Part shown: in pieces, positions 7,280 through 27,143 of the stretch
Numbering within the stretch: position 1 is the stretch's first letter
How the letters are laid out: each line of letters starts with the position of its first letter
Assembly: GCA_020629635.1 (NCBI GenBank)
Contig: JAHDCX010000005.1
Coordinates: forward strand, 64,721 to 128,720
Direction: 5' to 3'
Source of the DNA: Acidimicrobiales bacterium
GTDB taxonomy: Bacteria; Actinomycetota; Acidimicrobiia; Acidimicrobiales; SHLQ01
Length of the DNA: 64,000 bases
The notes under the pieces: model-generated
Databases searched by the model: none
What the model was told of the DNA's origin: nothing
The model's input: the letters and a program-made list of their open reading frames with translations, nothing else
Made by a program: the position numbers and the translations under genes

Positions 7280-7877
7280 GGGGGTCTCCCAGGTTCGTGC
7301 GAAGCCGTTTCAGCCCATCTCGGATTCGCGTCTTTATGGTTCCCTCCGCAACATCGAGCAATGCGGCAACCTCGCGGTAGGTGTACCCGTCGTAGTACGC
7401 GAGCGACACTGCCTCGCGTTGCGCATCGGTCAACCCTTCGAGCGCTGCGCGGACCTGCTCGGCATCGAGTTCGTCCTCGACGACCTCTGCAGTCGACGGA
7501 ACCGTGGTGGCCGCTTCACGTTGTGCGTCTCGTTCTTCTCGGTTGCGTCGCGCTTGTTCGGATCTGACCCGATCCACGGCCCGCCGGTGCGCAAGGGTGT
7601 TGATCCATGCCTTGGCGGTGCCCTTGTCGGGTGAGAATCTCGGCGCCAAACGCCAGACCTCGACGTACACCTCCTGGGTGATCTCTTCGGCGATCGACGG
7701 GTCGCGCACGATGTGCAGAACGATCCCGTACGCCGAGGCAGACGTCAGGTCGTAGACGTCGGCGAACGCCGCCTGATCACCCCGTCCCGCTCGTACGAGC
7801 GCATCGCACGCCGGACTGGTCTCGGGGCGCGTGGTGGCCTCGACGGAGCGCAGGCGAAATCGGGCCATGTCGATCAT
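7269..7877 (-). CDS. sigK: ECF sigma factor, SigK type
   Basis: 202 residues when started at the ATG at 7877, which has GAAGG 7 nt upstream. A longer frame extends upstream but without coding character. Region 2 is seen as EITQEVYVEVWRLAPRF, and region 4 as YDGYTYREVAALLDVAEGTI followed by a basic helix. SigK in mycobacteria is controlled by RskA and drives mpt70/mpt83 (fasciclin) genes and a neighbouring operon. Here the same logic is visible, since a molybdopterin oxidoreductase and a fasciclin lipoprotein lie divergently. A SigK-like promoter is present upstream (7938-7965), consistent with autoregulation. Confidence 0.9.
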   Translation of the reverse strand: MIDMARFRLRSVEATTRPETSPACDALVRAGRGDQAAFADVYDLTSASAYGIVLHIVRDPSIAEEITQEVYVEVWRLAPRFSPDKGTAKAWINTLAHRRAVDRVRSEQARRNREERDAQREAATTVPSTAEVVEDELDAEQVRAALEGLTDAQREAVSLAYYDGYTYREVAALLDVAEGTIKTRIRDGLKRLRTNLGDPHDE

Positions 7878-7937
7878 CGTCGCACCTTCGCTCACGCTTT
7901 GGCGACAGGGGTGATCGACAACGGCAGTCACACCTCT

Positions 7938-7965
7938 TCTTCGGAGACACGACGCATCTGGATTG
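7938..7965 (-). promoter_or_regulatory. Candidate SigK-type promoter of sigK-rskA
   Basis: On the minus strand CAATCC (7965-7960) is separated by 16 nt from CGAAGA (7943-7938). This resembles the mycobacterial SigK consensus CCATCC-N16/17-CGAAT. Transcription would start near 7931, giving a leader of about 55 nt. I see no equally good match pointing toward the divergent oxidoreductase gene. Confidence 0.45.
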
Positions 7966-7985
7966 GACACGAAGAAAGAGGATCC

Positions 7986-9614
7986 ATGACGTGTCCAATC
8001 CGGGCGGCGGGTCGGCACCGAACCTCCGCCATGACCCCTCAGCCCGATACCAATCAAACCCTGACGGCCAGACGCTCTCGGCGACGGAGCGTGGTGCTTG
8101 CGCTCTTGGGTGTGCTCTCCGGCGCGCTCGGACTCGCCACGACCGAGTTGCTCGCGGGCCTGCGGCGAACCTGGCGCAATCCGATCTTCGATGTCGGCGA
8201 TCGTGTGGTCGAGCGCAGCCCGCAAGCGCTGACCAAACTCGCAATCGAGTGGTTCGGCACAAACGACAAGGTTGTGCTGCTCGGCGGGATCATCGTCGTG
8301 TTGGGGTTGCTGTCTGCCTGGTTCGGCGTGCTCGCCGCTCGTGGCCGTCGCAAGATCGTGCTCGCCGCAATCGTGATCATCGGGGCACTTGGCGCGCTCG
8401 CTGCGAGCGCGCCAACACCGGCGATCTCTGGTTGGGAGCCACTGCAGACAGTTCCTTCTGCGCTCGGCACGATCGTCGCCATCGCGGCATTCGTCTGGTT
8501 GACCGACGCCGAGCGAGCGGCATTGTCGACTCGGGCAGCAACCGCAGCTACGCCCTCACGACGCGACTTCGTGCTTCGTTCAACTGGTGTGGCGCTCGGC
8601 GCGGGAATCGTCGCCGCGACCGGACGAGGTTTGGCCCGGCGCTTCGAGGTCGCGAGTTCACGCGATGCCATCACGCTCCCAACCCCCATGACGCCGGCGC
8701 CAGACCCTGGCACGGCAATTCAGGCACCGAACGCAGCACCGTTCTTCACCACCAATCGGGACTTCTATCGCATCGACACGGCGCTCACGATCCCGCAGAT
8801 CGCACCGGACGACTGGACGCTACGCCTGACCGGCATGGTCGAGCGTGACATCGAACTCACCTACGCCGACCTGGTGGATCGACCGATCGAGGAGCACGAC
8901 ATCACGCTCACGTGTGTGTCGAACGTGGTCGGCGGCGACCTGATCGGCACTGCACGATGGCTCGGAATTCGCCTCGACGATCTCCTCGAGAGCGCAGGCG
9001 TGGACCCGGAGGCCGACCAGATCGTCGGCCGATCCATCGACGGGTACACGTGTGGGTTTCCTGTCGAGGCGCTGGATGGACGGGCCGCTCTCGTGGCGAT
9101 CGGGATGAACGGCGAACCGCTCCCGTTGCGACACGGATTTCCGGCACGTCTGATCGTGCCAGGGATCTACGGGTATGCATCCGCCACCAAGTGGCTGACC
9201 GAGATCGAGCTCACGAGATTCGACCGATTCGATCACTACTGGGTTCCGCGAGGGTACGCAGCGCAGGCTCCGATCAAGCTGCAGTCGCGCATCGACACTC
9301 CCCGTGGTCTCGACCGAATCGCTGCCGGACCGTTCGTCATTGGCGGCGTTGCCTGGCATCAGCCAATCGGTATCGACGCCGTCGAGGTCCGCATCGACGG
9401 GGATGACTGGATTGCGGCGACGCTTGCCGACGAGCTCGACGAATCCACGTGGAGGCAGTGGTCGCTGCCGTGGGACGCCACTCCCGGCCGCCACACGATC
9501 GAGGCCCGCGCAATTTCTCGAAATGGAGCAATCCAAACCGAGGACCGCTCCGAACCACTCCCAGACGGCGCAACCGGACACCACACGGTGGTCGTGCTCG
9601 TCGACGAAGCCTGA
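7986..9614 (+). CDS. Membrane-bound molybdopterin-dependent oxidoreductase (sulfite-oxidase fold)
   Basis: 542 residues if started at ATG 7986, which has AAAGAGG just upstream; ATG 8031 is the alternative. The first part has four hydrophobic helices, then an internal Tat-like SRRDFVLRSTGVALG segment at about residue 185. The following domain matches the oxidoreductase molybdopterin-binding family (PF00174). It includes the likely cofactor cysteine in LTCVSNVVGG and GYTCGFPVEAL, and the C-terminal Mo-co dimerisation domain (IDAVEVRIDGDDW). Catalysis is expected on the outer face of the membrane; the substrate is unknown (sulfite or another S/N-oxide). It is divergent from sigK by 108 nt and directly upstream of the fasciclin gene, a layout like the SigK locus of other actinobacteria. 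Confidence 0.87.
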   Translation: MTCPIRAAGRHRTSAMTPQPDTNQTLTARRSRRRSVVLALLGVLSGALGLATTELLAGLRRTWRNPIFDVGDRVVERSPQALTKLAIEWFGTNDKVVLLGGIIVVLGLLSAWFGVLAARGRRKIVLAAIVIIGALGALAASAPTPAISGWEPLQTVPSALGTIVAIAAFVWLTDAERAALSTRAATAATPSRRDFVLRSTGVALGAGIVAATGRGLARRFEVASSRDAITLPTPMTPAPDPGTAIQAPNAAPFFTTNRDFYRIDTALTIPQIAPDDWTLRLTGMVERDIELTYADLVDRPIEEHDITLTCVSNVVGGDLIGTARWLGIRLDDLLESAGVDPEADQIVGRSIDGYTCGFPVEALDGRAALVAIGMNGEPLPLRHGFPARLIVPGIYGYASATKWLTEIELTRFDRFDHYWVPRGYAAQAPIKLQSRIDTPRGLDRIAAGPFVIGGVAWHQPIGIDAVEVRIDGDDWIAATLADELDESTWRQWSLPWDATPGRHTIEARAISRNGAIQTEDRSEPLPDGATGHHTVVVLVDEA

Positions 9615-9648: not shown

Positions 9649-10860
9649 ATGTTCAACAACTCCCGAACTCCGAGAAAACGTACGGCCGCACTCCTCGCCG
9701 CAGCAGCGCTGTTCCTGGCGGCATGTGGCGGCGACGGTGACGACGTCGCCCAAGCCGACGTCGAAGAAACCACCACGACGACCGAGGCTCCCGCAGAATC
9801 CACGACCGAGGCCATGGAAGACATGGACGAGGGCGCAATGGATGAAGGCGCAATGGACGACCCGATGATGGGAGCGTTCGGTCCGGCGTGCTCCGCAGTG
9901 CCGGCCGATGGTGAAGGTTCGTTCGCCGGCATGGCCGACGACACCGCCGCCACCGCAGCGAGCAACAACCCGCTGCTGTCCACCCTCGTGACCGCAGTGG
10001 TCGAAGCCGACCTCGTCGACACCCTCAACAGCGACGGACCCTTCACGATCTTCGCCCCGACCAACGACGCCTTCGGCGCCATCCCCGAGGACATCCTCGG
10101 TGCGGTGCTCGCCGACAAGGACCTGCTCACCAGCGTCTTGACGTACCACGTCGTGGCAGGCGAGGGCACCCAGGCGGCTGGGCTCGGCACGGCCGGCGAA
10201 CTCGCAACGGTCGAAGGCGGAACGATCGCATTCGGCGCTGACGGCACCACCGTGAATGACGCGTCGGTGATCTGCTCCGATGTTCCTGTGGCGAACGGTG
10301 TCGTGCACATCGTTGACCAGGTGCTCTTGCCGCAGGTTGCTTTGGATGCGATCGAGGCGATCACGGCTGCCGAAGCGATGCTGGGCGCAAACGGTCCGGC
10401 GTGCTCCGCAGTGCCGGCCGACGGTGAAGGTTCGTTCGCCGGCATGGCCGACGACACCGCCGCCACCGCAGCGAGCAACAACCCGCTGCTGTCCACCCTC
10501 GTGACCGCAGTGGTCGAAGCCGACCTCGTCGACACCCTCAACAGCGACGGACCGTTCACGATCTTCGCCCCGACCAACGATGCCTTCGGCGCCATCCCCG
10601 AGGCCGACCTCGCTGCGGTGCTCGCCGACAAGGACCTGCTGACCACGGTGCTCACCCACCACGTCATCGCCGGTGACTCGCTCTCGAGCGCCGACCTCAT
10701 CGCCGCTGGAACTGTCACGACGGTGGCCGGTACCGAGCTGACCTTCAGCGCCGAGGGCGAGGTGACCGGGATCAACGGTGTGGCCACCACGCTCTGCCAG
10801 AACGTGCCCACGGCCAACGCAACGGTGCACATCATCGACACGGTGTTGATCCCCGGCTGA
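9649..10860 (+). CDS. Lipoprotein with two fasciclin (FAS1) domains
   Basis: 403 residues. The ATG at 9649 has AAGGA upstream and lies 34 nt after the oxidoreductase stop, so it is likely in the same operon. The signal peptide ends in a lipobox (LFLAACGG). An acidic, Thr/Met-rich linker (residues 35-75) is followed by two FAS1 domains at about 80-235 and 250-400. Each has an FTIFAPTNDAFGAIPE core and an H-I-[VI]-D C-terminal motif. The domains are nearly identical in their first 83 codons (see repeat). Known relatives are MPT70/MPT83, SigK-regulated envelope proteins involved in adhesion. It is exported and lipid-anchored. Confidence 0.92.
   Translation: MFNNSRTPRKRTAALLAAAALFLAACGGDGDDVAQADVEETTTTTEAPAESTTEAMEDMDEGAMDEGAMDDPMMGAFGPACSAVPADGEGSFAGMADDTAATAASNNPLLSTLVTAVVEADLVDTLNSDGPFTIFAPTNDAFGAIPEDILGAVLADKDLLTSVLTYHVVAGEGTQAAGLGTAGELATVEGGTIAFGADGTTVNDASVICSDVPVANGVVHIVDQVLLPQVALDAIEAITAAEAMLGANGPACSAVPADGEGSFAGMADDTAATAASNNPLLSTLVTAVVEADLVDTLNSDGPFTIFAPTNDAFGAIPEADLAAVLADKDLLTTVLTHHVIAGDSLSSADLIAAGTVTTVAGTELTFSAEGEVTGINGVATTLCQNVPTANATVHIIDTVLIPG
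9880..10129 (+). repeat. Direct repeat copy 1 within the fasciclin gene
   Basis: This 250-bp stretch recurs at 10393-10642, 513 bp downstream and in frame. Only single-base changes are seen until near the end, where several bases differ (ATCCTC vs GACCTC region). It encodes the N-terminal half of each FAS1 domain. The flanking halves are much less alike, which points to recent gene conversion or partial duplication. Confidence 0.9.
10393..10642 (+). repeat. Direct repeat copy 2 within the fasciclin gene
   Basis: Second copy of the in-frame repeat described at 9880-10129. It starts GGTCCGGCGTGCTCC and carries synonymous differences such as GAT to GAC. Confidence 0.9.
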
Positions 10861-12328: not shown

Positions 12329-13129
12329 ATGGTCGAGAAGATCGTCGCCAGCGCCGTGGTCGCCTTCCTGGTCATTGCGAGCAGGGTCATCTTCGGACGA
12401 GTCCTGGCCCGGCAGTCCCGAACGCCAGTCGAAGAGCGGCGGAGCCACATCGTCCTGCTCCGAAACATCACCCTGCTGACGGGTTCGCTCCTGCTGATCC
12501 TCATCTGGGCGGACGAACTGCAGGTACTCGGTCTGTCACTCGTCGCCTTCGGTGTCGCAATCGCCATCTCCCTTCAAGACGTCGTGAAGTCTGCGATCGG
12601 CGCAGCGGTCCGGGCCACGAGCAGCACCTACACCGTCGGTGACCGGATCAAAATTGGCGACATCCGAGGGCAGGTGATCGACCATTCGCTTCTCACGACG
12701 ACACTGATCGAGATCGGACCCGGAAGCACGCGGACCGGGCGGACGATCACGATTCCGAACAGTCTTCCGCTGACCGAACCCTTGCTCAACGAAACTGCAG
12801 GACACGAGTACGTTCTCCATTCGTTTGCCGTCCTGGTGAAGCGCACGAGTTGGCGCACGGCGGAACAGGTCCTTCTCGCTGCTGCGCAGGAAAACGCCGG
12901 TCCCTACGTCGACCCGGCGAGGAACCAGATGGAGGAACGGGCACGAACCCATGCGCTGTCTGCACCGAACGTCGTACCGCTGGTCTTCCTCCGGTCGGTC
13001 GACGTCGACGTCGTCGAGCTCACGGTTCGTGTTCCGGTCGCGGCAGGATCGGCTGGCGCTGTCGAGGACGCGATCGTCCGCACCTGGCTCGCTCACGGTG
13101 ACGAAACCGACGCACACCCTGCCCAATGA
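12329..13129 (+). CDS. Short MscS-family mechanosensitive channel
   Basis: 266 residues from ATG 12329, where the first membrane helix begins (MVEKIVASAVVAFLVIAS). An upstream in-frame ATG at 12209 has GGAG before it but would add an uncharacteristic polar 40-residue leader. Two to three helices are followed by the pore helix LVAFGVAIAISLQDVVKS and the beta domain TYTVGDRIKIGDIRGQVIDH, typical of MscS. Family role: pressure-gated release of solutes in the inner membrane. The stop TGA is the first three bases of the family A palindrome at 13127. Confidence 0.8.
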   Translation: MVEKIVASAVVAFLVIASRVIFGRVLARQSRTPVEERRSHIVLLRNITLLTGSLLLILIWADELQVLGLSLVAFGVAIAISLQDVVKSAIGAAVRATSSTYTVGDRIKIGDIRGQVIDHSLLTTTLIEIGPGSTRTGRTITIPNSLPLTEPLLNETAGHEYVLHSFAVLVKRTSWRTAEQVLLAAAQENAGPYVDPARNQMEERARTHALSAPNVVPLVFLRSVDVDVVELTVRVPVAAGSAGAVEDAIVRTWLAHGDETDAHPAQ

Positions 13130-13142
13130 CACACCTGTGTCA
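13127..13142. promoter_or_regulatory. Family A palindrome, site A1
   Basis: TGACACACCTGTGTCA, a perfect 7-2-7 inverted repeat overlapping the stop of the MscS gene. CAGCCT (nAnnnT) begins 24 nt after its end. The ATG at 13178 follows that hexamer by 6 nt, so the next gene could be leaderless. Confidence 0.65.
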
Positions 13143-13177
13143 TCGCGTTCGAGCCTTGGGGTCGCCAGCCTCCTTTC

Positions 13178-13561
13178 ATGGGTCAGATGGAGCCGATCAT
13201 TGCGGTGTCCGTGTCAACGCAGCCACCCGTCCTCGTGCGCGTCACGTACCACCTGGAGGGCGCGGTCCTGTGTGCGGGGGTCGTGCTTCCGGAAGGGCCA
13301 TTGATCGGCTCGTCGATCTGTCCAGCACTCCAGACGGGCTCCACGCTCGCCATCGCGGGCGTCATTCCCCTGCCCTCGAGTCCGGTGAGCTCGCTGGAAT
13401 TCTCCGGTCTTTGGACGCGCACGTCCGGAGGCTGGACGTGCCGCCGATCGGACGCACACCTACTCGATTGCCGTGGACGCCTCGTCGCCACGCCAACGCT
13501 CGTGGCTGAGCCGTCGGTCGACCGAGCGCACCCGCCCTTCCGACGGCCTGCTCGCCGATGA
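13178..13561 (+). CDS. Hypothetical protein in family A regulon
   Basis: 127 residues, no recognised family. The N-terminal half is beta-type and hydrophobic (ISVSV-like runs, VLVRVTYHLEGAVLCAGVVL); the C-terminal tail is Arg/Pro-rich. No ribosome-binding site is seen. The start sits where a leaderless transcript from site A1 would begin, which is the main support. The TGA stop again forms the first bases of the next palindrome (13559). It has the same layout as the following gene, suggesting two consecutive promoter-gene units. Codon use is less biased than its neighbours, so the reality of the gene is moderately supported. Confidence 0.5.
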   Translation: MGQMEPIIAVSVSTQPPVLVRVTYHLEGAVLCAGVVLPEGPLIGSSICPALQTGSTLAIAGVIPLPSSPVSSLEFSGLWTRTSGGWTCRRSDAHLLDCRGRLVATPTLVAEPSVDRAHPPFRRPARR

Positions 13562-13574
13562 CACATCTGCGTCA
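13559..13574. promoter_or_regulatory. Family A palindrome, site A2
   Basis: TGACACATCTGCGTCA, one mismatch between arms. TATCGT (13598-13603) starts 24 nt downstream and the ATG at 13611 follows 7 nt later. The same 16-mer occurs on the minus strand at 22682-22697. Confidence 0.68.
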
Positions 13575-13610
13575 GGGATCGCCCTGGGGGCGATCCGTAT
13601 CGTCGAGTTC

Positions 13611-14087
13611 ATGACCGCAAACCTCAGTTCGCCGCCGGACATCGACACTCGCTCGATGAGCCGATCGACGATCATCGAATTCGCCGACGGCATCGTTGGC
13701 CGACAAATCGGAGTCGTCGTCAACCTGGATCGACGTCGGGTGTTGGCCGCCGTCGTCACGACCGCTCGGGGATTCCATCGGGTCCCGCAGTGGTCGATCA
13801 CGGGCTCATCGCTCCCCTTCTCTCGTCGCCTTGTGTCCTGGTGCGAAGCACAGCCGACGCTGATGCGCCCGGCGCCGGTCGAAGACGTCTCGGTGTTCGG
13901 CGAAACAGTCATTGCCGACTCCAGCGGACCAGTCGGTCATTTGTCGTGCGTCCGAATCGATCACGAGGGCTTCGTGAACTCCCTCGACGTCATCGCCGCC
14001 GACGGGCTCGTCGAGACCGTTCGCCGGAACGCCTTCGAGTGGGTCGATGGCTCCACCATTCTTCAACCCTCCGCTGAGTTCCACTGA
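13611..14087 (+). CDS. Hypothetical protein, first gene of a RimB-like operon
   Basis: 158 residues from ATG 13611, placed 7 nt after a -10-like TATCGT. It has no leader ribosome-binding site, consistent with leaderless translation. Beta-rich sequence with SRSTIIEFADGIVGRQIGVV near residue 20 and a Ser/Val-rich remainder. It has no membrane segment and no family I can name. Its gross features (size, acidic-beta content) recall the 151-residue protein at 21204, also in this regulon, but I see no clear homology. Its TGA overlaps the next ATG by one base, so it is translationally coupled to the protease-like gene. Confidence 0.7.
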   Translation: MTANLSSPPDIDTRSMSRSTIIEFADGIVGRQIGVVVNLDRRRVLAAVVTTARGFHRVPQWSITGSSLPFSRRLVSWCEAQPTLMRPAPVEDVSVFGETVIADSSGPVGHLSCVRIDHEGFVNSLDVIAADGLVETVRRNAFEWVDGSTILQPSAEFH

Positions 14088-14563
14088 TGGCGACGATCTC
14101 TCCTCACCCGACCGGACATCGAGCGACCGGCGGTGTTCCCCTCCCCCTCGGTTGGATCGAAGCGGTGCGAGTCCCCGAAGTCTCGGCGCAGCCCTTCGCG
14201 GCCAAGCTCGACACCGGAGCCAGAACGGCGGCGTTGCACGCCGTCAACATCGACTACCGAAGCGAAGGCGGTGTCGACTACGTGGAGTTCGAGTCGGTGT
14301 CCCCCACCTCAGAAGAACAGCGGATTTGTCTGCCACTGATCGAGCACCGCCTGGTGCGGTCCTCCAATGGGCACTCCGAGCTTCGCCCCGTCGTGGAGAT
14401 CGGTCTCGAACTCGGGCCGTTGTCTCGTCGGATCGAGTGCACGCTCACCGACCGGTCGCGTCTTCGGTATCCCATGATCCTGGGACGGACCGCCCTCGCC
14501 GGTATCCGTGTCGATCCGACGAACGAACACGTCCTCGCCCAAGCTCCGGTCTTGGCGAGTTGA
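14087..14563 (+). CDS. RimB-like ATP-dependent zinc protease family protein (retropepsin-like fold)
   Basis: 158 residues. The aspartyl-protease signature KLDTGARTAALHA appears at about residue 39, and the second-lobe motif MILGRTALAGI near 130, as in PF05618 (called ATP-dependent zinc protease; RimB/SspG-like retropepsins). Family members are encoded near RimK-type ATP-grasp ligases and process or counter their polyglutamate products. A RimK-like gene lies at 17831. The ATG overlaps the previous stop (TGATG). It is convergent with the histidine kinase gene, which ends one base further on. Cytoplasmic; the protein substrate is unknown. Confidence 0.85.
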   Translation: MATISPHPTGHRATGGVPLPLGWIEAVRVPEVSAQPFAAKLDTGARTAALHAVNIDYRSEGGVDYVEFESVSPTSEEQRICLPLIEHRLVRSSNGHSELRPVVEIGLELGPLSRRIECTLTDRSRLRYPMILGRTALAGIRVDPTNEHVLAQAPVLAS

Positions 14564-14564
14564 T

Positions 14565-15764
14565 TCAGGTCGTGTCTTGAACGGGTCGGAGTCCGGGCAG
14601 GTGGATACGGACGGCTGTCCCCGATCCCTGCTCGGACTCGACCTCGAATCTGCCCGATGCGCGTGCGGCCAACTCAATGCAGTTGGCCATACCCATGTGT
14701 CCGATCTTGCGTCGCTGGGCAACGGCTGGATCGAATCCCCTACCGTCGTCGCGCACGGCGATGTCGACACCGCCGCCGTGGGCGGCGACATCGACTCGAA
14801 CCGTCGAGGCCCCAGAGTGCTTGACCACATTCCACAGCGCCTCCACCGACAACCGATACGCCAATGCGGCAGTGCCGCTGTCGGGTTCGACGTCCTCGGT
14901 CGCAGCGAAGTCGACGTGGATTCCGTGCGGCTCGACAACCTCGTAGAGATAGTTTTCGATCGCTGCGGCCAGTCCATCATCGTCGAGCGACGGTGGGTGG
15001 AGGTCGACGAGCAGCCGACGGAGCCGCTCAATGCTGGCCGTGACGGCTTGCTGGACGTCCGTGAGGATCGCCACACCGGCCTCGTCGACCCGCGGGCGGA
15101 GACGTTGCAGGCGGAGCGACACGCCGGTCATCACCTGAATCGGATCATCATGAAGCACTCCGGCGAGGGCTCGCCGTTCGTCGCTGATCAGGCGGTGCAT
15201 CGTGAGCTCGCTGAGGTGTTGACTCAATGCGAGCCGAATCAGGCCAGCATGATGAATGAGCACCGCAACCTCGTCGACCGCCGTGATCTTCTCCGGCGAC
15301 AGGACCACGAGCCACGCCCGCAGATCGTCCCGCCCGGGGAACACTTCGACGATGAGGATCGCCCCGAACCCCGCAGCCTCGATTGTCGACGAGATCTCAC
15401 CCCATGTGTCCCGAGTTGGTCGGAGAATCGCTGCATGCGAGTCGTCCGCCAGCCGGGCATAGCGCGCAATCCGAGCATCATCGACGGTCAGTTCGGAAAG
15501 AATCCCGACCACGTCGTCACTCACCGAGCCCGCACCCGCAATCGCACTGTCTGCTTCGGCATCGGGCCAGACGACCGCCACTCTCGAGTTCGGCCACAGA
15601 GATTCGAGTTCCTCGATGATCACCGGGAGGGCATCGTCGAAGGACGAGTCCCCCGCCAGCAGGTCGACGATTCGCCCCTGTGTGTCCGCAACGGCTCGGG
15701 CTTGCTCGGCGTCGAGGTCGTCAACGTCGGCCTCGACCACCTCAGGCTTCGAGTTCGGGCTCAT
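14565..15764 (-). CDS. Sensor histidine kinase, HisKA_3 (NarL-type partner)
   Basis: 399 residues from ATG 15764 (AGGGC upstream; the longer frame adds a basic tail without support). Residues 25-190 form a GAF-like sensor with no transmembrane helix, so sensing is cytoplasmic. The dimerisation/phosphoacceptor motif DERRALAGVLHDDPIQ places His at 205. An N-box (EALWNVVKHSG) and G-boxes (DDGRGFDP, GHMGMANC) follow. Divergent by 65 nt from its likely partner regulator. The soluble GAF-HisKA_3 architecture is shared with redox/oxygen sensors such as DevS, but no haem ligand can be assigned here. Confidence 0.9.
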   Translation of the reverse strand: MSPNSKPEVVEADVDDLDAEQARAVADTQGRIVDLLAGDSSFDDALPVIIEELESLWPNSRVAVVWPDAEADSAIAGAGSVSDDVVGILSELTVDDARIARYARLADDSHAAILRPTRDTWGEISSTIEAAGFGAILIVEVFPGRDDLRAWLVVLSPEKITAVDEVAVLIHHAGLIRLALSQHLSELTMHRLISDERRALAGVLHDDPIQVMTGVSLRLQRLRPRVDEAGVAILTDVQQAVTASIERLRRLLVDLHPPSLDDDGLAAAIENYLYEVVEPHGIHVDFAATEDVEPDSGTAALAYRLSVEALWNVVKHSGASTVRVDVAAHGGGVDIAVRDDGRGFDPAVAQRRKIGHMGMANCIELAARASGRFEVESEQGSGTAVRIHLPGLRPVQDTT

Positions 15765-15829
15765 GCGCCCTACTCTGACACGACGAGTGCCTGCCGTCCT
15801 TGGCACGTCCAACCCGGAGGAAGGTCGTT

Positions 15830-16471
15830 ATGGACCGCTCCCCATCCGTACTCATCGTCGACGACCACACCATCGTCGCTGGTGGCATGGCCGCCCTGCT
15901 CGACGATGCTGGCATCGACGTGCTCGGCACTGCCAGCTCGAAGGCCGATGCGCTGGCGCAGCTGACCGCAACGACCCCGGACGTCGTGCTGGTCGATTAC
16001 CGACTGCCGGACGGCAATGGCATCGACCTGGTCCGCGCGGCGAAGAGCCAGACCAGCGCGCACTTCGTCATGGTGACGGCCGCCGCTGATCGACGGGTCG
16101 TCGCCAAGGCGCTCGAGGTCGGGTGTATCGGGTTCTTGTCGAAGAACGCCGCACCCGCGGAGATCGAAACCGCCGTCCGGGGGGCAGCCCGCGGCGAGAG
16201 CGTCTTCACGAGCGATGTGATCGGGCATCTGCGCCACCTCGAACGGTTCGAGATCTTTGACGCCGAGGAACTCAGCGATCGCGAGGCAGAAGTCCTCGAA
16301 CTGTCGGCGCAGGGTCGGTCGCCAGAGGAGATTGCTGCCGAGCTGTACCTGAGCGTGCACACCGTCCGAAACCACATTCGCAATGCCATGACCAAGCTGC
16401 AGGCACACACGAAACTCGAGGCGGTCGTCAAGGCCGTCCGACTGCGGCTCATCTCGATCGACGAATCATGA
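15830..16471 (+). CDS. NarL/LuxR-family response regulator
   Basis: 213 residues from ATG 15830, preceded by a strong GGAGGAAGG. The receiver has acidic residues DD at 11-12, phosphoacceptor D56 (VLVDYRLPDG) and Lys in GFLSKNA. A LuxR-type HTH occupies 150-213 (LSDREAEVLELSAQGRSPEE, then SVHTVRNHI). NarL-type regulators bind 7-2-7 inverted repeats, the geometry of the family A palindromes around it. It is therefore the best candidate for their regulator, though this is inference. It is cotranscribed with the stand-alone receiver (ATGA overlap). Confidence 0.92.
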   Translation: MDRSPSVLIVDDHTIVAGGMAALLDDAGIDVLGTASSKADALAQLTATTPDVVLVDYRLPDGNGIDLVRAAKSQTSAHFVMVTAAADRRVVAKALEVGCIGFLSKNAAPAEIETAVRGAARGESVFTSDVIGHLRHLERFEIFDAEELSDREAEVLELSAQGRSPEEIAAELYLSVHTVRNHIRNAMTKLQAHTKLEAVVKAVRLRLISIDES

Positions 16472-16842
16472 CCGACAAACCAATCACGGAACGCTCGGTC
16501 ATCATCGCCGATGATGACGATGTCGTCCGCGAAGCGCTGGCCGATCTCATTGCGGATCATCCGACGTTCGTCCTTGCCGGAGCCGGCGAATCAGGATGGG
16601 AAGCTGCCCAGCTTGCCAACGAGCACGATCCCGATTTGGCGATCGTCGACGTGATGATGCCCGGTGGCGGGGTGGACGCTGTGGCGCTCATCCACGCCGA
16701 ACGACCAGTCCTGCCCGTGTTTGCGTTCACCGCCAACCGCTCGAGGCGCACCCGCTCCGAGCTCCTCGAATCCGGCGCACGGGCCGTCTTCATCAAAGGC
16801 GATGGCACGGACCTTCTTGCAGCAATCGAAGATCTCCTTTGA
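16468..16842 (+). CDS. Stand-alone response-regulator receiver protein
   Basis: 124 residues: a single CheY-like domain with acidic cluster DDDD at 15-18, phosphoacceptor D61 (AIVDVMMPGG) and Lys in AVFIKGDG. No output domain. It overlaps the upstream regulator by ATGA and would be made with it. Such proteins act as phosphate sinks or relay modules for a nearby HisKA_3 kinase. Cytoplasmic. Confidence 0.85.
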   Translation: MTDKPITERSVIIADDDDVVREALADLIADHPTFVLAGAGESGWEAAQLANEHDPDLAIVDVMMPGGGVDAVALIHAERPVLPVFAFTANRSRRTRSELLESGARAVFIKGDGTDLLAAIEDLL

Positions 16843-16848: not shown

Positions 16849-17244
16849 TCAGGCAGTTCGCGGAGCGTGCAACCCGAGATGCCGAACGAAACATCCGTCT
16901 GGCCGCCGAATCGTGAGATGTCCACTCGACGCATCGGTGGTGCGCGGAATCAGTATTTGGCCGGCCACGTGGAGGTCGCCGCCTTTCAAATCGACCGTGC
17001 GGTGATGCCACAGCGGCAGCTCGAACTGCAGGATTGCGTGCGTCACCGTGTGATCGATCGTGAACGAGCCGTCACCTCGATACATCGCATCATGAAGCCA
17101 CAGCGCGAGATAGACCCGGCGCTCGTCGCCATGGAGCCGAACACGAGCGACATCAGCACCGTCGGAAGCAGCCAGTTCGATCGGCGCAATGCGACCATGC
17201 CTGTGTTCGGCGACGGGTGCGGGGGCCTGCCGAAAATCGATCAC
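16849..17244 (-). CDS. Hypothetical protein, second gene of minus-strand family A operon
   Basis: 131 residues starting at GTG 17244, overlapping the previous stop in a GTGA junction, the usual sign of coupled genes. Beta-rich, with many His/Arg (LHGDERRVYLALWLHDAMY, FTIDHTVTHAILQFELPLWH). No signal or membrane segment and no recognised family. It ends 7 nt from the receiver gene on the opposite strand. It could be a partner of the upstream 152-residue protein, as both are small beta proteins. Confidence 0.6.
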   Translation of the reverse strand: MIDFRQAPAPVAEHRHGRIAPIELAASDGADVARVRLHGDERRVYLALWLHDAMYRGDGSFTIDHTVTHAILQFELPLWHHRTVDLKGGDLHVAGQILIPRTTDASSGHLTIRRPDGCFVRHLGLHAPRTA

Positions 17245-17699
17245 GGCCGTCGTGACGCAGACTTGCGTTGGCGTGGTCCGGAGAGCAGAGCAAGCATGCG
17301 CTGCCCAGAGCTGACCGTCTGAGAGAAGCGTTCGCTGACTCGGCCGTTGATGATCAGCGCTCCGTCAACGTGCGACCATTCGAAGCGCCCGGATCCGCCG
17401 AGAGCGCATTGGCCCCAGAAGTTGACCTGGGAAGGCACTACATGGTCGAGCGGGATACTTCCCGAGACGAACAGATCGTCGCTTCTGTCGTCCTTGCACT
17501 GCACATCGATGGAATCCCACCCATTGAACGCCACACCATCGAGAACGAGCCACGCGCTTGCCACCCCCGAGTCTCGTGAATCAGCGAGATGCACGGAAAG
17601 GTTGACGTGATCGTTGGCGGCAACACGCGATCGCAGCCGAATGGAGATGGGCGGCTGCAGACCTTGGCGGGTCGACAGCAAACCCTTGCGAAGGAGCAT
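17241..17699 (-). CDS. Hypothetical beta-rich protein, divergent from RimK-like gene
   Basis: 152 residues. Core rich in V/L/D (SVHLADSRDSGVASAWLVLD, FEWSHVDGALIINGRVSERF). Basic C-terminus. No known domain recognised. The gene is read away from palindrome A3 (17780). On this strand GATGAT begins 24 nt after the palindrome, as at other sites, giving a leader of about 45 nt. No strong ribosome-binding site is seen. The shared divergent operator links it to the RimK-like ligase. Confidence 0.62.
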   Translation of the reverse strand: MLLRKGLLSTRQGLQPPISIRLRSRVAANDHVNLSVHLADSRDSGVASAWLVLDGVAFNGWDSIDVQCKDDRSDDLFVSGSIPLDHVVPSQVNFWGQCALGGSGRFEWSHVDGALIINGRVSERFSQTVSSGQRMLALLSGPRQRKSASRRP

Positions 17700-17779: not shown

Positions 17780-17795
17780 TGACATGAACATGTCA
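17780..17795. promoter_or_regulatory. Family A palindrome, site A3 (bidirectional)
   Basis: TGACATGAACATGTCA, perfect arms extended by one further base pair on each side. Rightward, CATACT (17819-17824) begins 24 nt after the site and GTG 17831 lies 6 nt further on. Leftward, GATGAT begins 24 nt from the other end. Both divergent genes thus carry the same geometry. Confidence 0.7.
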
Positions 17796-17830
17796 TGTCG
17801 GAACGTGGATCTGATTCTCATACTGAAGGC

Positions 17831-19057
17831 GTGATCGACCAGCACCACTCCGACGCGCCGCTGAACATCGGGGTTCTGTCTCGCGCTCCCGAGGCATATT
17901 CAACCAAGCGAATCGTTGAGGCGATTCGGGATCGTGGGCATCAGCCTCGGGTTCTCGACACGCTCCGGTTCGCAATCGACCTTTCGGAGAGAAACCCCGA
18001 GTTGTTTCACCGTGGCAAGCGGATCGAAGAGATCGACGCCGTGATCCCGCGAATCGGTACGTCGATCACTTTCTACGGCCTTGCCGTACTTCGACAGTTC
18101 GAGCAGATGGATGTGTACACCCCCAACACGTCGAACGCCGTTGCGTCGTCGCGCGACAAGCTGCGTGCGAACCAGGTGCTGGCGAGGCACGGGATCGCCA
18201 TGCCCCGGACGACCTTCGTACAGAACCGCAACGACATACTCCCGGCGATCGAACGTGTCGGTGGCGCTCCGATCGTCATCAAGCTGCTCGAGGGCACACA
18301 GGGAATCGGCGTGATCCTCGCCCCCGATGTGAAGGTCGCCGAAGCCGTGATCGAAACACTGCATTCCACACGGCACAACGTGCTCGTTCAGGAGTTCATC
18401 GCGGAGAGCAAGGGTCGCGACATTCGAGCCTTCGTGGTTGGAGATCGCGTCGTTGGTGCGATGCGACGTGTCGCCAAACCGGGTGAGTTCCGGTCGAACG
18501 TGCACCGAGGTGGTCACGCAGAATCGATCGACCTCCCTGATGCCTTCGCCGAGACGGCCGTACGGTCGGCGCAGATCATGGGCCTCGAGGTCGCCGGCGT
18601 CGACATGCTCGAGGGCGCCGATGGTCCAATGGTGATGGAGGTCAACTCCTCACCGGGTCTCGAAGGCATCGAGGGGGCGACGGGTCTCGACATCGCTGGA
18701 GCCATCGTCGACCACGTCGCCTCCCGTATCGTGTTTCCTGACGTCGATGTCCGTCAGCGCCTGTCGGTCTCGGCGAACTACGGCGTGGCCGAACTCACCC
18801 TGAACGACGGAGCTGCGATCTTCGATCGTGCCGATACCGTCGGCGACCTTCGCGAGCTCGACATCACTGTCCTGACCCTTCACCACGATCGGACGGTGAT
18901 CCCTCACCCGCGCGATGGCCGTCCTCTTCATCCCGGCGATCGCGTCGTCTGCTTCGGCAACCTCGAGGTGCTGCGAACCCTCGTGCCGAAGCGGAAGCGA
19001 CGCGAACGGCTGCCGGAGATCAAGCCGCTCGAGACAGATCTCGAACCCACCTCGTGA
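17831..19057 (+). CDS. RimK-type ATP-grasp ligase fused to a C-terminal RCK (TrkA-C) domain
   Basis: 408 residues from GTG 17831. An ATG at 17795 lies inside the palindrome and is less likely. N-terminal RimK pre-ATP-grasp domain (INIGVLSRAP-like start, IDAVIPRIGTSITFYG) is followed by ATP-grasp with SSRDKLRANQVLARHGI, IVIKLLEGTQGIGVILA, DIRAFVVGDRV and the metal-binding VMEVNSSPGLEGIE. About 90 further residues match TrkA-C/RCK_C (LTLNDGAAIFDRADTV, PLHPGDRVVCFG). RimK relatives add glutamate or similar residues to protein C-termini. The RCK_C fusion would make the activity ligand-gated; that part is inference. Pairs functionally with the RimB-like gene at 14087. Confidence 0.88.
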   Translation: MIDQHHSDAPLNIGVLSRAPEAYSTKRIVEAIRDRGHQPRVLDTLRFAIDLSERNPELFHRGKRIEEIDAVIPRIGTSITFYGLAVLRQFEQMDVYTPNTSNAVASSRDKLRANQVLARHGIAMPRTTFVQNRNDILPAIERVGGAPIVIKLLEGTQGIGVILAPDVKVAEAVIETLHSTRHNVLVQEFIAESKGRDIRAFVVGDRVVGAMRRVAKPGEFRSNVHRGGHAESIDLPDAFAETAVRSAQIMGLEVAGVDMLEGADGPMVMEVNSSPGLEGIEGATGLDIAGAIVDHVASRIVFPDVDVRQRLSVSANYGVAELTLNDGAAIFDRADTVGDLRELDITVLTLHHDRTVIPHPRDGRPLHPGDRVVCFGNLEVLRTLVPKRKRRERLPEIKPLETDLEPTS

Positions 19058-19126: not shown

Positions 19127-20212
19127 GTGGAGGTGACCGAGCGTTGGTTCGAGCGCCAGTCGGGCCGCTTTCGTCGCAACGCCGACGCGGAGCGGTCTGA
19201 ATCGGACTGGTTCTGGCTCGATCTGGTCATCGACCCCAACGAACAGCCCGAGGCAGCCACCGAGCGTCTCGCAACTTTCGACTTCGACCAGCTTGCGATT
19301 CGTGATGCGCTTGGACCCGATGTCGATTTGCCGAAACACGAAGACTTCGATGATCACGTGTTGGTCGTACTGCGAGAACTCGCCGCCGACCGTGTGGAGA
19401 CCCATGAGATCAACGGCTTCCTCCACGGGTCCGGGTTGGTCACGATACGCCGAGAGGCCTCACCGGTCCTCACGGCGATCCATGATCTCGCTGACCGCGG
19501 CCGCAACTTCGATCTCGGCGGCCCCGACGAGCTCCTGGCGACGATCGCCGAGTCGGTTTGTCGGCGCTATCTGCTGTTCGAACGCATCATCGACGAAAAC
19601 CTCGAGCCCCTCACCGAGATGGCGCTCGCCGCAGACCCACATCTCCTCGAAGAACTGACCGGGCTCCGGAGATCGGTTGCCGAAGTACGGGGGCTCCTAC
19701 GGCCCCATCGGGACGTTTTCGACGAGCTTCGCCAACCGACACCGCTGGTCACCGAAGCTGGTCGGCGACGATTCTCCGACGCCTATGACACGGCAAGTCG
19801 CGCCGTGCACGAGCTCGACGGCGCACGGACTGCAATGGCGGAGATCCTCGGTGCCTACCAGGGCGCCGAGGCCAGGAAAGCAACCGAGATCACTCGGGTA
19901 CTGACCGTCTACGCCGCAGTACTGCTGCCACTCGCGTTGATGGCCGCAATCTTCGGCATGAACGTCGAGATTCCCGCTGGGGACTCGCCGCGAGCGCTCC
20001 TCTACATCGTCGGAGCGATGCTCGCCGGGGCCGTGCTGTCTCTGCTCGTCTTCTTCCGGCTCGGGTGGCTCAACAGCCCGCAGCGTCGGCGACCATCAGA
20101 AACCGCCATCTCGAGGAGTGTGCTCGAAGCTGTCCGCTCGCCAACCACGGTCGACCTCGCAGAGCGCCGTTCGAATCCGCGCCGGAAAAAGCTCAGTCGA
20201 CGACGGCAGTGA
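19127..20212 (+). CDS. CorA-family divalent cation transporter
   Basis: 361 residues from GTG 19127. A soluble alpha/beta N-domain and long helices are followed by two C-terminal membrane helices. The signature GMN lies near residue 277 (IFGMNVEIP), defining the CorA/MRS2 superfamily. A basic tail (RRSNPRRKKLSRRRQ) ends the protein. Role: Mg2+ (or Zn2+/Co2+) passage through a pentameric inner-membrane channel. It is 69 nt after the RimK-like gene, possibly with its own promoter. A TGACGTACAT half-palindrome upstream does not meet the family A consensus. Confidence 0.88.
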   Translation: MEVTERWFERQSGRFRRNADAERSESDWFWLDLVIDPNEQPEAATERLATFDFDQLAIRDALGPDVDLPKHEDFDDHVLVVLRELAADRVETHEINGFLHGSGLVTIRREASPVLTAIHDLADRGRNFDLGGPDELLATIAESVCRRYLLFERIIDENLEPLTEMALAADPHLLEELTGLRRSVAEVRGLLRPHRDVFDELRQPTPLVTEAGRRRFSDAYDTASRAVHELDGARTAMAEILGAYQGAEARKATEITRVLTVYAAVLLPLALMAAIFGMNVEIPAGDSPRALLYIVGAMLAGAVLSLLVFFRLGWLNSPQRRRPSETAISRSVLEAVRSPTTVDLAERRSNPRRKKLSRRRQ

Positions 20213-20254: not shown

Positions 20255-20827
20255 TCAGCGAGCCACCGGTGCGCTGTCGAGCAAGTGAACAATCCCGTCC
20301 TGCACGGGAACATTGCCTCGCAGAATTCGCGCTCCTCCGATCGTGCCCGCTGCGGCATCGACGGCTACCTCGTTTCCATCGGAAAACGTCGCGGACGACT
20401 CGCGCATCAACGAAAGGTCAGACATCACGCCATCGATGGTGAAGATCGCCGCATCACCGTGTGAACTCGGCGCGACGACGACAAACCACGTGTAGGGAAG
20501 TACAGGGTGCGGATCGATCGGGTGCTCTGCAAGCCAGTCCGACGCATGTTCGAGTCCTTCCGAAGAGGCGAGCAGCTCTGACACGGTCAACGATGAAGGG
20601 CGCCGTGGTAGCTCAAAGTGAGGCGGTTGGTCAACGACTGCGACGGACTCGACGACCCCGGGGTCTGTGGGGCCGATGATGGCTTGGGCGGCGACCGCGA
20701 TGAGGACGACGATCACCGCATAGGCGAATCGGAAGCTGGGCCGCCGACCACCGAAGCTGCTGCTGGCATCGTGCAGCCCTGCGCCAAGGTGGGTGATCGA
20801 CGGAGCGCCTTTGAGAGTCAGGGTCAT
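20255..20827 (-). CDS. Membrane-anchored divergent fasciclin-like protein
   Basis: 190 residues. A short cytoplasmic N-terminus and one helix (FAYAVIVVLIAVAAQAII) are followed by an extracytoplasmic domain. It has the outline of FAS1: SSLTVSELLASSEG, then YTWFVVVAPS in place of FTVFAPTD, and DGIVHLLDSAPVAR matching the H-x-[VI]-D end motif. The central region is reduced, so adhesion activity is doubtful. AAGG lies 7 nt before ATG 20827. It diverges from the lipoprotein gene at 20959 across palindrome A4. It is a second fasciclin-type gene in the window. Confidence 0.65.
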   Translation of the reverse strand: MTLTLKGAPSITHLGAGLHDASSSFGGRRPSFRFAYAVIVVLIAVAAQAIIGPTDPGVVESVAVVDQPPHFELPRRPSSLTVSELLASSEGLEHASDWLAEHPIDPHPVLPYTWFVVVAPSSHGDAAIFTIDGVMSDLSLMRESSATFSDGNEVAVDAAAGTIGGARILRGNVPVQDGIVHLLDSAPVAR

Positions 20828-20908
20828 GGGAACACCTTGCCCAAACGCCCTGATCCGTCACCTGGCACAGAAATGTCATCGTGGCCGGCGGATGACTCTG
20901 CTGGACGA

Positions 20909-20924
20909 TGACATGTTCATGTCA
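20909..20924. promoter_or_regulatory. Family A palindrome, site A4
   Basis: TGACATGTTCATGTCA, perfect arms with one extra flanking pair. GATCAT (20947-20952) follows 22 nt after its end, and ATG 20959 is 6 nt later. It lies between the divergent fasciclin-like and lipoprotein genes. Confidence 0.68.
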
Positions 20925-20958: not shown

Positions 20959-21207
20959 ATGCTCAATCAACGACGTTTCGTTCCGGCCACAACGCTGGCT
21001 CTCGTTGTGCTCATCACCACATCCTGCGGCCCCCTGGCGCTCCCGACCCAACAGATCGTCCCCGTTCCTGAAACGCCGGTGATCGTGGGCAACCATGGCG
21101 ACACAGTCGTCTCCGACCGCGACGGCACACCGATGACGGTCATCGTCGTCGACGGCCAGACCGGACTCCTCGGGCCAGCCCCGACCCTGCCGCCGGTGAC
21201 ACCATGA
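20959..21207 (+). CDS. Small lipoprotein
   Basis: 82 residues. Signal peptide with lipobox LITTSCG (Cys at about 23), then a Pro/Val-rich tail (VPVPETPVIVGNHGDTVV). The start has no ribosome-binding site and follows a -10-like hexamer by 6 nt, compatible with leaderless expression from A4. It overlaps the next gene by ATGA. Function unknown; lipid-anchored outside the membrane. Confidence 0.78.
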   Translation: MLNQRRFVPATTLALVVLITTSCGPLALPTQQIVPVPETPVIVGNHGDTVVSDRDGTPMTVIVVDGQTGLLGPAPTLPPVTP

Positions 21208-21659
21208 GCGCCATCGATTCGGCGCAGGCAATTCGCCTGCGATTCGGTGACCTCATCTCGCTCGACGACAGGCGCTCCGGCGTCCTCGAAGGCTTCGAAG
21301 TGAGCCGGGTGCACGGCCGGCTCGAAAACCTGATCGTGCGCGTTGACGCCGAAATGACACTGCTCGTCGGGGCCGCCGTCATGACTCGCGCCACGGCCGA
21401 ATCTGGCGCCGTTTCGGTGCTGCCCCAAACCGCCTGGCCGGTGGTCGACGACCACCTCACCCGACTCGTCGTCGGCGCACGGATCCAGACCGAACTCGCC
21501 AACGGCGTGCTCCGTTGGATTGCAATCGACGACGACCGACGAATCATCTCGGCCGGCTGGCGCACAGACGAGTGCAACGGAATCCGTCTCGATCTCGATG
21601 CGCTGTTTTGCCACGTCGATGGCGACGGATTTCACGGCCGCTACGGCTGGCACAACTGA
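21204..21659 (+). CDS. Hypothetical protein coupled to lipoprotein
   Basis: 151 residues, acidic, beta-rich, without signal or membrane segment. Notable stretches are IRLRFGDLISLDDRRSGVL and a C-terminal CHVDGDGFHGRYGW. The start overlaps the lipoprotein stop (ATGA). Family not recognised; cytoplasmic. The preceding lipoprotein and this protein form a two-gene unit of the family A regulon. Confidence 0.72.
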   Translation: MSAIDSAQAIRLRFGDLISLDDRRSGVLEGFEVSRVHGRLENLIVRVDAEMTLLVGAAVMTRATAESGAVSVLPQTAWPVVDDHLTRLVVGARIQTELANGVLRWIAIDDDRRIISAGWRTDECNGIRLDLDALFCHVDGDGFHGRYGWHN

Positions 21660-21674: not shown

Positions 21675-21690
21675 TGACACGAACACGTCA
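21675..21690. promoter_or_regulatory. Family A palindrome, site A5
   Basis: TGACACGAACACGTCA. CATCGT (21714-21719) starts exactly 24 nt after its end. Transcription would begin near 21726, leaving a 39-nt leader that contains AAAGGAG before ATG 21765. Confidence 0.68.
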
Positions 21691-22116: not shown

Positions 22117-22608
22117 TCATGTGGGTCGAGAGTCCGGGCGAGCGGAGCCTTCGCCTGTGGCAGCGCCGATGTCGTGGAGAAAGTTGTCCAGGGGCGGTTC
22201 AAGGGTCGCAGCATCGGTTTCGACTGGCACGACCGGGGTACTCGACGTCATTGGCGGATTGGTGGTGGTGAGCGGGCTGGCCGTCGTCCCCGAAGTCGAT
22301 TGCGTGCCGTCTTCGATCGTCGTCGGTGTCACGATGACCGACGGAACCTCCCGATCAACATCGTCCTGCTCTGACTCGACCGCAGCGGCGACAGGCGTTC
22401 CGAGATCGACAACCGACCGAGCGCCTGAAACTGGAGCGTTGCGACCCGCAACGACAACGGCACCGAGGACCACGACTCCGGCACCGAGTCCGAGCAGGGC
22501 AACGGCGCCGATGATCCGGAGAATCGGATGGTCGGACGCCCAAGGAGATCTCGGGTCTGTTGACTTCGTGTGTGCTCGATCGGCGATGAACGTGGGCATC
22601 TTGGGCAT
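22117..22608 (-). CDS. Single-pass membrane protein with Thr/Pro-rich extracellular linker
   Basis: 163 residues. A cytoplasmic start, one helix (IIGAVALLGLGAGVVVLGAVVVAG at about 32-55) and a Ser/Thr/Pro/Val-rich outside part (TPTTIEDGTQSTSGTTAS). AAGGA touches ATG 22608, so the second ATG at 22599 (9-nt spacing) may be the true start. No family recognised. Read away from palindrome A6 on the minus strand. Confidence 0.72.
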   Translation of the reverse strand: MPKMPTFIADRAHTKSTDPRSPWASDHPILRIIGAVALLGLGAGVVVLGAVVVAGRNAPVSGARSVVDLGTPVAAAVESEQDDVDREVPSVIVTPTTIEDGTQSTSGTTASPLTTTNPPMTSSTPVVPVETDAATLEPPLDNFLHDIGAATGEGSARPDSRPT

Positions 22609-22681: not shown

Positions 22682-22697
22682 TGACGCAGATGTGTCA
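22682..22697. promoter_or_regulatory. Family A palindrome, site A6
   Basis: TGACGCAGATGTGTCA on the plus strand, which reads TGACACATCTGCGTCA on the minus strand, identical to A2. On the minus strand GACACT (22658-22653) begins 24 nt away. It serves the membrane-protein gene to its left. The rightward side has no such hexamer. Confidence 0.68.
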
Positions 22698-22951: not shown

Positions 22952-23443
22952 TCAGGGGACCATCTTCGCGACGTGTGATCGGACCAGCCATTGGAAGAAC
23001 TCCAACGTGGCCGTCTGCGAAATGAGCAGGTCCTCGGTGACCGGATCCGGCTCAGCCGCCGCGATGGCCTCCCGGTGGTCGAGGATGATCCCTGAGTACA
23101 CGCTGTCGAGCGCGTGGAGGTGGAGGTCGGACTCCGCTCTTCCGAGCGGGTAGTCGGACCAGGTGCGCTGAGAAACGAGATGTTGAGGCGTGCCGATCGG
23201 TTCTCCTCCGAGAACTCGAAGACGTTCGGCCAGCGCATCCGACATCGATCGGACCTCGACGACATGCTCGTCGAGCATCTCGTGAATGGCGATGAAGTTC
23301 GGCCCGATCACGTTCCAATGGACGTGTTTCAGCGTCAATGCGAGGTCGATCAGACTGTTCAGGCGCTGCTGGAGGACGGCGTGAATTTCTCGGACGCTGT
23401 CGAGTTCCAGGCCATCGATCGCTGGGGTTCGGACGGTGCTCAT
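22952..23443 (-). CDS. dps: Dps-family ferritin-like DNA-protection protein
   Basis: 163 residues from ATG 23443, with AAAGG 5 nt before it; the longer frame lacks support. The four-helix ferritin fold is seen, with the Dps ferroxidase signature LTLKHVHWNVIGPNFIAIHE followed by LDEHVVEVRSMSDALAERLR. Family role: oxidises Fe2+ with H2O2, stores iron and binds DNA in stress or stationary phase as a dodecamer. It lies beside the partner-switching sigma locus, a common target class. No family A palindrome precedes it. Confidence 0.92.
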   Translation of the reverse strand: MSTVRTPAIDGLELDSVREIHAVLQQRLNSLIDLALTLKHVHWNVIGPNFIAIHEMLDEHVVEVRSMSDALAERLRVLGGEPIGTPQHLVSQRTWSDYPLGRAESDLHLHALDSVYSGIILDHREAIAAAEPDPVTEDLLISQTATLEFFQWLVRSHVAKMVP

Positions 23444-23523
23444 GGGTGCCTTTCTGTTGGCTTCACTTGGGGTGTACCCAGCTGCAGCGGTCCTCAAACT
23501 CAAATTCCCCCTGGAGAGGTCGA

Positions 23524-25599: not shown

Positions 25600-25614
25600 T
25601 AGGTTGGTTTCAGC

Positions 25615-26358: not shown

Positions 26359-26372
26359 GGCGCCGCCGCCGG

Positions 26373-26687
26373 TCACGCCGGCGCAGCGTCGACGCCAAAC
26401 GTGGCGAGTAGACCCGTGATCTCGAGCACCCGGTGGACCGCGGGTGACGGATTGACGATCGACACCCCGATCCCATCAGCTGCGAGGCTGGTGTGGATCC
26501 GCAGAAGTTCACTGATGGCCGAAGAATCGAGAAAGGTCGTTTCCGCCATGTCGATGTTGAGGGCGTCGGTCGGGCGCGAGCCCTCGTTCGAAATCGATGA
26601 CCCGAGCGCCGCGCAGTTGTCCGCATCGACTTCGCCAGCGACGCGCATGACGGTCACCGACGGCGAGTGTTCGACTTCGATCTCCAT
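26373..26687 (-). CDS. Anti-sigma factor antagonist (STAS domain, RsbV-like)
   Basis: 104 residues: a complete STAS fold starting VTVMRVAGEVDADNCAALGS. The phosphorylatable serine lies in TTFLDSSAISELLRIH, the RsbV/SpoIIAA signature. Family role: in the unphosphorylated form it binds the anti-sigma kinase and frees the sigma factor. Convergent with the sigma gene (14 nt), so it has a separate promoter. Cytoplasmic. Confidence 0.92.
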   Translation of the reverse strand: MEIEVEHSPSVTVMRVAGEVDADNCAALGSSISNEGSRPTDALNIDMAETTFLDSSAISELLRIHTSLAADGIGVSIVNPSPAVHRVLEITGLLATFGVDAAPA

Positions 26688-26749
26688 CGTTCCTCCAGAA
26701 TTGCTGGCCTCGAAGCGTACAACGTCGAGTTCGCCACGGGGTCCGCTGT

Positions 26750-27085: not shown

Positions 27086-27143
27086 GATGAACTTCCTTTC
27101 AGAGAGGACGTGCGTAAAGACGCCGAATGGGGACACGGCTACG

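Follow-up and report, generated by a model that had tools for sequence, protein, structure and literature searches.

A candidate two-component controller for a palindrome-marked local regulon in an Acidimicrobiales bacterium

A 64,000-nucleotide stretch of an Acidimicrobiales genome (hereafter the window) carries a set of similar palindromes, the family A sites, around the genes for a sensor histidine kinase, a NarL-type response regulator and a stand-alone receiver, which raises the question of whether this two-component system controls the genes that the palindromes precede. The original prediction named the system as candidate controller from its position between two of the sites, A2 and A3. 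It did not define the sites, and we rebuilt them by palindrome scans, the first of which returned TGACATGNNCATGTCA at 17780 and 20909. The rebuilt consensus, aTGACAYRNNYRTGTCAt, is a 16-base palindrome with eight sites at 13.1-34.6 kb of the window, either exact TGACAN6TGTCA matches (13127, 17780, 20909 and 34586) or one mismatch away (13559, 20863, 21675 and 22682). A2 and A3 are most likely the sites at 13559 and 17780. Across the 4.45 Mb genome (37 contigs) the exact motif occurs five times, with four of the five copies within 21.5 kb, a clustering that would arise with a chance of about 3e-9 if five sites were placed randomly; allowing at most one mismatch gives 32 genome matches, eight of them here, and 11 for a reversed-pattern control. 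In geometry the A sites are 7-2-7 inverted repeats that co-occur with the regulator, and they are its predicted binding sites. A CRP/FNR-like reading of TGACAN6TGTCA (5-6-5) was rejected, as there is no CRP-type gene among the island ORFs and conservation spans the 7-2-7 core. The sequences at 13559 (TGACACATCTGCGTCA) and 22682 (TGACGCAGATGTGTCA), 9 kb apart, are exact reverse complements of each other.

Most of the sites have a predicted target gene. On the + strand, TGACACACCTGTGTCA (13127-13142) is followed by a weak -10-like hexamer, CAGCCT (13166-13171), and, at +36, by the ATG of an unknown ORF (13178-13561), while the site at 13559-13574 is followed by the -10 hexamer TATCGT (13598-13603) and an ATG at 13611 (+37). 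The latter opens a + strand gene (13611-14087; considered as a PRC-barrel protein and rejected for want of similarity), the first in an operon with a PF05618 "ATP-dependent zinc protease" (14087-14563, +; Pfam 4.7e-28), a retropepsin-like protein that we take, partly on our own reading of the family, to be of RimB type. The basis for this assignment is the pairing of retropepsin-like proteins with RimK (PMC12239564, PMC11957791). Site TGACATGAACATGTCA (17780-17795) faces both ways: on the + strand lie the -10 hexamer CATACT (17819-17824) and the leaderless GTG at 17831 of a RimK-type ATP-grasp ligase (17831-19057, +; Pfam 1.1e-58; start backed by ortholog lengths), with a CorA-like divalent metal transporter gene downstream (19127-20212, +; Pfam 8e-41), and on the - strand GATGAT stands at +24 toward genes 17241-17699 and 16849-17244. 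In Pseudomonas, RimB and RimK form a module through which ribosomal protein S6 gains and loses glutamates (PMC11957791, PMC7343187). A one-mismatch site on the - strand (20863-20878) has the -10-like CAAGGT at +24 and the ATG of gene 20255-20827 (-) at 20827, +36. On the + strand, TGACATGTTCATGTCA (20909-20924) has the -10-like GATCAT at +23 and, at +35, the ATG (20959) of a small lipoprotein-like gene followed by 21204-21659; a weak ortholog with the same site exists in genome G258. The one-mismatch site TGACACGAACACGTCA (21675-21690, +) has CATCGT at +24 ahead of a DUF6458 gene (ATG 21765, +). The site at 22682-22697 is unoriented, with NANNNT at +24 on the - strand, and its target is unsure (22117-22608 on the - strand or a short + strand ORF).

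The last site, TGACATGGCTGTGTCA (34586-34601, +), has GATGAT at +24 and lies ahead of a gene start near 34686 that opens a secreted LAxTG-type surface protein (34686-35486, +), supported by an alignment of three orthologs; ATMGCGQ begins its mature part, and the sortase-like motif LALTG lies near its C terminus, both being conserved in G258 and G579. This gene was overlooked by composition-based gene calling and was found through the promoter rule set out below. The window gene and its surface-protein orthologs in G258 and G579 are each preceded by a site and hexamer. A SpoIIE protein (33990-34553, ATG at +33) was considered as the target of this site and rejected in favor of the surface protein, given the + strand GATGAT and the orthologous promoters.

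At oriented sites, a hexamer of the form NANNNT (e.g., GATACT, GATGAT, GACAAT, TATCGT or CATACT) starts 23 or 24 nt past the 16-bp palindrome, and ATG or GTG start codons peak 36 nt after it. We selected sites by the motif alone (at most one mismatch) from four orthologous islands and found NANNNT at +23/24 in at least one orientation at 15/15, compared with 12% of random positions (binomial 2e-14, a guide figure, as the rule had been seen before testing and orthologous promoters are not fully independent); off-island control sites with the same motif had the hexamer in 6 of 33 cases. The A sites are promoter elements. Off-island one-mismatch sites of the window genome were rejected as regulon members, their geometry being at chance level, with one possible exception at C31:34107 before an unrelated, glycosyltransferase-like gene. 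If the hexamer is taken as the -10 box, the palindrome is centered at -42.5 to -43.5 (about -43) and transcription begins right at those start codons that stand at +36, giving leaderless mRNAs, which are common in actinobacteria such as M. tuberculosis (PMC3898074). The predicted A-site promoters would thus be mostly leaderless, with a palindrome near -43, the layout expected of a NarL-type activator: NarL 7-2-7 sites lie at -40/-49 at napF and -38/-47 at yeaR (PMC4549865), and the start-proximal DevR site overlaps the -35 element (PMC3029386). No sigma70-type -35/-10 promoters were found in 12-24 kb of the window. Applied as an annotation rule, the succession of palindrome, 23-24 nt, -10 and leaderless start can reveal start codons and small genes that escape composition-based prediction; the surface protein is one such gene.

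The three genes of the system are real by Pfam. The kinase (14565-15764, -) matches HATPase_c (2.1e-11) and HisKA_3 (7.9e-8), and an alignment of four orthologs shows its N, G1 and G2 boxes intact and invariant; with an H-box of HDDPIQ containing His205, it qualifies as an HPK7-type kinase by its HisKA_3 dimerization domain and HATPase_c domain. Its divergently transcribed partner, the regulator (15830-16471, +), has the NarL/FixJ architecture of a receiver (Response_reg, 1.2e-22) followed by a GerE helix-turn-helix (2.9e-16), with its phospho-acceptor residues present: D11, D12, D56, T83 and K105 are invariant in four orthologs, as is the recognition helix HTVRNHxRN among orthologs. The stand-alone receiver (16468-16842, +; Response_reg 8.5e-17 and no further domain) is co-translated 3' of the regulator through a 4-base stop/start overlap (ATGA) and retains, by sequence, the acidic, phospho-acceptor, Thr and Lys positions for phosphorylation. 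The original description of the kinase as soluble and of GAF-HisKA_3 type held in part: HisKA_3 is present and the protein shows no membrane segment (19-residue hydropathy at most 1.64), while Pfam finds no GAF domain in the window kinase and matches GAF_2 in two of four orthologs (best 1.6e-4). The AlphaFold model of the kinase is weak (pLDDT 64), and a fold search returned catalytic-domain matches only, with a low overall TM-score; an N-terminal GAF domain is plausible from the ortholog matches. The claim that no other two-component system lies nearby holds for every ORF scanned (window ORFs from 4.9 kb onward), the nearest others being an orphan GerE protein with a pseudo-receiver (60092-60760) and a REC-PAS-SpoIIE protein (56723-58564), each more than 40 kb away.

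The regulator is rare, with counts of 2/297 genomes of the order, 4/19 of the family and, at E < 1e-55, 2/395 of the class; in the order sample, G258 has the sole close regulator besides that of the window. Four distinct loci were read, namely the window, G258, G579 (L175) and L018, the last being the same contig as G491 and near-identical to L019/G578, and counted once. These near-identical contigs (G491 C17 and G578 C244/C251) come from metagenome-assembled genomes of two orders, through either binning contamination or very recent transfer, and the taxonomic origin of L018 is unsure. Common to all four islands are A sites (at most one mismatch), the kinase, the regulator, the receiver adjoining it, RimK and the RimB-like protein; of these shared genes, the regulator alone encodes a DNA-binding protein. 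Gene order varies among the islands and the link between site and target is retained; in L018, a CorA gene and a RimB-like gene diverge from a single shared site, their start codons lying at +34 and +36. A position weight matrix (PWM) built from 15 sites, which gave three control hits above 8 in 151.6 kb, places a site in the regulator's own promoter in three of four lineages (G258, 18911, score 21.6; L018, 8392, score 16.4; G579, 1075, score 15.2), with the regulator ATG at +36 in L018 and G579. Across the order genomes geometry-correct exact sites are rare, with seldom even one per genome; the window genome has five and the next best four, on four contigs.

Several other loci in the window deserve description. 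Directly beside the regulon, 22952-28231 encodes a partner-switching general stress cluster (Dps, a SpoIIE phosphatase with HATPase, a SigB-type sigma factor, STAS and two RsbW-like HATPase genes) that is conserved in G258 and lacks A sites, so that it is linked to the regulon by neighborhood only. A REC-PAS-SpoIIE phosphatase (56723-58564) is a candidate link of phosphorelay signals to this cluster. A gene within the island (28699-29865), also lacking an A site or Pfam hit and conserved in G258 beside Dps, resembles by our own reading the baeRF/Rv2629 group; in M. tuberculosis, Rv2629 belongs to the DosR regulon. At 60092-60760 lies an orphan GerE protein with a degenerate (pseudo-)receiver, which has two relatives in the G258 island and may rival the NarL-type regulator or act with it. 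TGGCAG-N4-CTGCCA defines a second family of palindromes, with seven matches against 1.9 expected, clustered at 37-51 kb (37342, 39037, 39212, 48342, 48363, 49918 and 50814) in the vicinity of an ECF-like sigma factor gene (35551-36126) and of PadR-type regulators; these are probably operators of another regulator. The window also holds an ECF-type sigma factor with an RskA-like anti-sigma partner (6563-8225) and a 300-nt direct repeat (9858-10157 and 10371-10670; 92% identical, 513 nt apart).

Since orthologs of the system are surrounded by sites and related, distant or housekeeping loci are free of them, the A sites are, judging from sequence, likely controlled by this two-component system. 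No A site (at most one mismatch) lies within 1.5 kb of RimK in 12 family genomes lacking the regulator, nor within 1.5 kb of the second RimK copies of three other genomes, and the best PWM score around these loci is 12.6. G011, G152 and G029 carry more distant regulators (44-46% identity) with neither sites nor an island around them, and these were rejected as members of the system. The check originally proposed, joint presence of system and sites across genomes, is borne out by the three other lineages and contradicted by one genome, G113, the single case found of the retained site that had been named as a refutation. There, an MscS ortholog (54%) is preceded by a site (12872, PWM 22.3, TACTCT at +23), and no regulator ortholog was detected in the 89%-complete assembly; the regulator may have been lost or lie in missing sequence, or another protein may bind the site. 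The contig with this MscS site (L204-L205, C51) is rich in insertion sequences and transposase genes. The window regulator's own promoter, which has no acceptable A site (best PWM score -2.8), likewise speaks against the proposed control, on the other side of which stand the sites around orthologs, the 7-2-7 repeat near -43 and the site-free housekeeping RimK genes.

Both counter-examples would fit a different arrangement, in which another factor, such as the orphan GerE protein or an unlinked one, binds the A sites and the two-component system is merely a target. Relatives of the orphan sit next to sites inside the G258 island, and the autoregulatory sites would be expected on this account too. 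However, 25 kb separate the orphan from the closest A site of the window, and the orphan is absent from the L018 and G579 contigs (which are short) and has a different recognition helix; moreover, site clusters occur only where the regulator is present, and no other DNA-binding gene is shared by the islands. We consider a different binder unlikely, though it is the strongest of the alternatives, and retain the NarL-type regulator as the probable binder.

The role of the stand-alone receiver was originally placed in a phosphorelay branch. Its intact phosphorylation residues and constant position beside the regulator agree with this, but neither an HPt protein nor a hybrid kinase was found among the scanned window ORFs. 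HisKA_3 kinases normally phosphorylate receivers directly, and this ordinary HisKA_3 kinase would be expected to do the same. Single-domain receivers that carry an output have been described, as have phosphate sinks (PMC5964349, PMC4214558), and either a sink or a second output fits the receiver better. With no HPt found in the window ORFs scanned, a relay is the least likely of these options, and we regard it as improbable.

It is also conceivable that the regulator binds the A sites and represses, since a protein bound over the -35 region could keep polymerase out, and NarL bound at the start site is a repressor of frdA (PMC4549865). Against this, the site replaces the -35 box at a fixed distance from the -10 hexamer in all 15 cases, the pattern of activator-dependent promoters, which makes repression very unlikely. 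Repressor sites usually vary in position. Finally, a motif as short as TGACAN6TGTCA should turn up a few times in a genome, but the reading of the palindromes as chance or structural (terminator-like) repeats has a negligible probability given the clustering of four of five genome matches in 21.5 kb, the fixed geometry and the conservation before orthologous genes.

We therefore favor activation by the two-component system, and we hold the following scheme as a whole to be probable. The kinase would sense a cytoplasmic cue, probably via an N-terminal GAF-like domain, autophosphorylate at His205 and pass the phosphate to Asp56 of the regulator. The phosphorylated regulator is predicted to dimerize on the palindrome, with each 7-bp half holding one subunit, at a position some 43 bp before the transcription start that would otherwise be that of the missing -35 box, and to recruit RNA polymerase to -10-only promoters, many of them leaderless. 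Its output would be a local stress regulon of about 10 neighboring genes, comprising the RimB-like protease, RimK (glutamate ligation), CorA, DUF6458, the small lipoprotein, the surface protein and unknowns, with MscS as a further target in some relatives; the combination of channels with RimB-RimK suggests osmotic or ionic stress. The regulator-receiver operon may itself be a target in three of four lineages, amounting to positive feedback. Adjacency in four lineages and the translational overlap in the window point to the receiver as a 1:1 functional partner of the regulator, and it would most likely compete for phosphate as a threshold setter or carry a second output; phosphate sinks that set thresholds and single-domain receivers that act as hubs are both documented (PMC4214558, PMC10368727, PMC5964349).

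More tentatively, these genes may form a transferable stress module, in which one system with a receiver side-branch governs RimB-RimK glutamylation, ion/osmotic channels and surface proteins through leaderless promoters of one fixed design, and which adjoins, and possibly feeds, the SigB-type partner-switching cluster. The parts of the system are of known kinds and the regulon appears undescribed, literature searches having found none of this kind in Acidimicrobiia. To our knowledge, this would be the first case of RimB-RimK protein glutamylation tied to a two-component signal. The analysis gives Acidimicrobiia and relatives, a lineage that is uncultivated or has hardly been studied, a concrete candidate regulon with a precise operator and promoter design; one palindrome and one purified protein are all that a binding assay would need.

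Among known systems, DosRS/DevRS of M. tuberculosis shares the domain plan of a NarL-type regulator and a soluble kinase (GAF HisKA_3 in DosRS), a palindrome near -43 over the -35 box, autoregulation (predicted here in three lineages) and local stress genes. The similarity is only remote, at a 24-bit-per-residue level (DevR, 4e-24); the conserved sites here are TGACAYRNNYRTGTCA in place of a DosR box of the GGGACTNNNAGTCCC type, and here there is an extra stand-alone receiver and no evidence of a haem-GAF. The system is thus predicted to work like DosR but is not a DosR regulon. NarXL of E. coli shares the 7-2-7 inverted repeat and the activator position of -40 to -49 (PMC4549865), whereas its heptamer is TACYYMT rather than TGACAYR and its sensor is a membrane nitrate sensor rather than a soluble kinase. 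In the envelope-stress systems VraSR/LiaSR, VraR is the closest solved regulator by sequence (7e-29) and VraS the closest in fold to the kinase catalytic domain; unlike these, the kinase here is soluble, the sites and targets are others, and the ORFs read next to the kinase and the regulator include no LiaF/VraT-type membrane partner. MadRS (NF047785/NF047786) provides the best NCBIfam model for the regulator, but its score of 124 bits is far under the 300-bit equivalog cut-off and places the regulator outside that family. Finally, RimABK of Pseudomonas likewise combines RimK with a retropepsin-like protein of RimB type, which form a conserved pair; its links there are to cyclic-di-GMP and RimA (PMC11957791, PMC4741518), whereas RimB-RimK here is predicted to be under two-component control.
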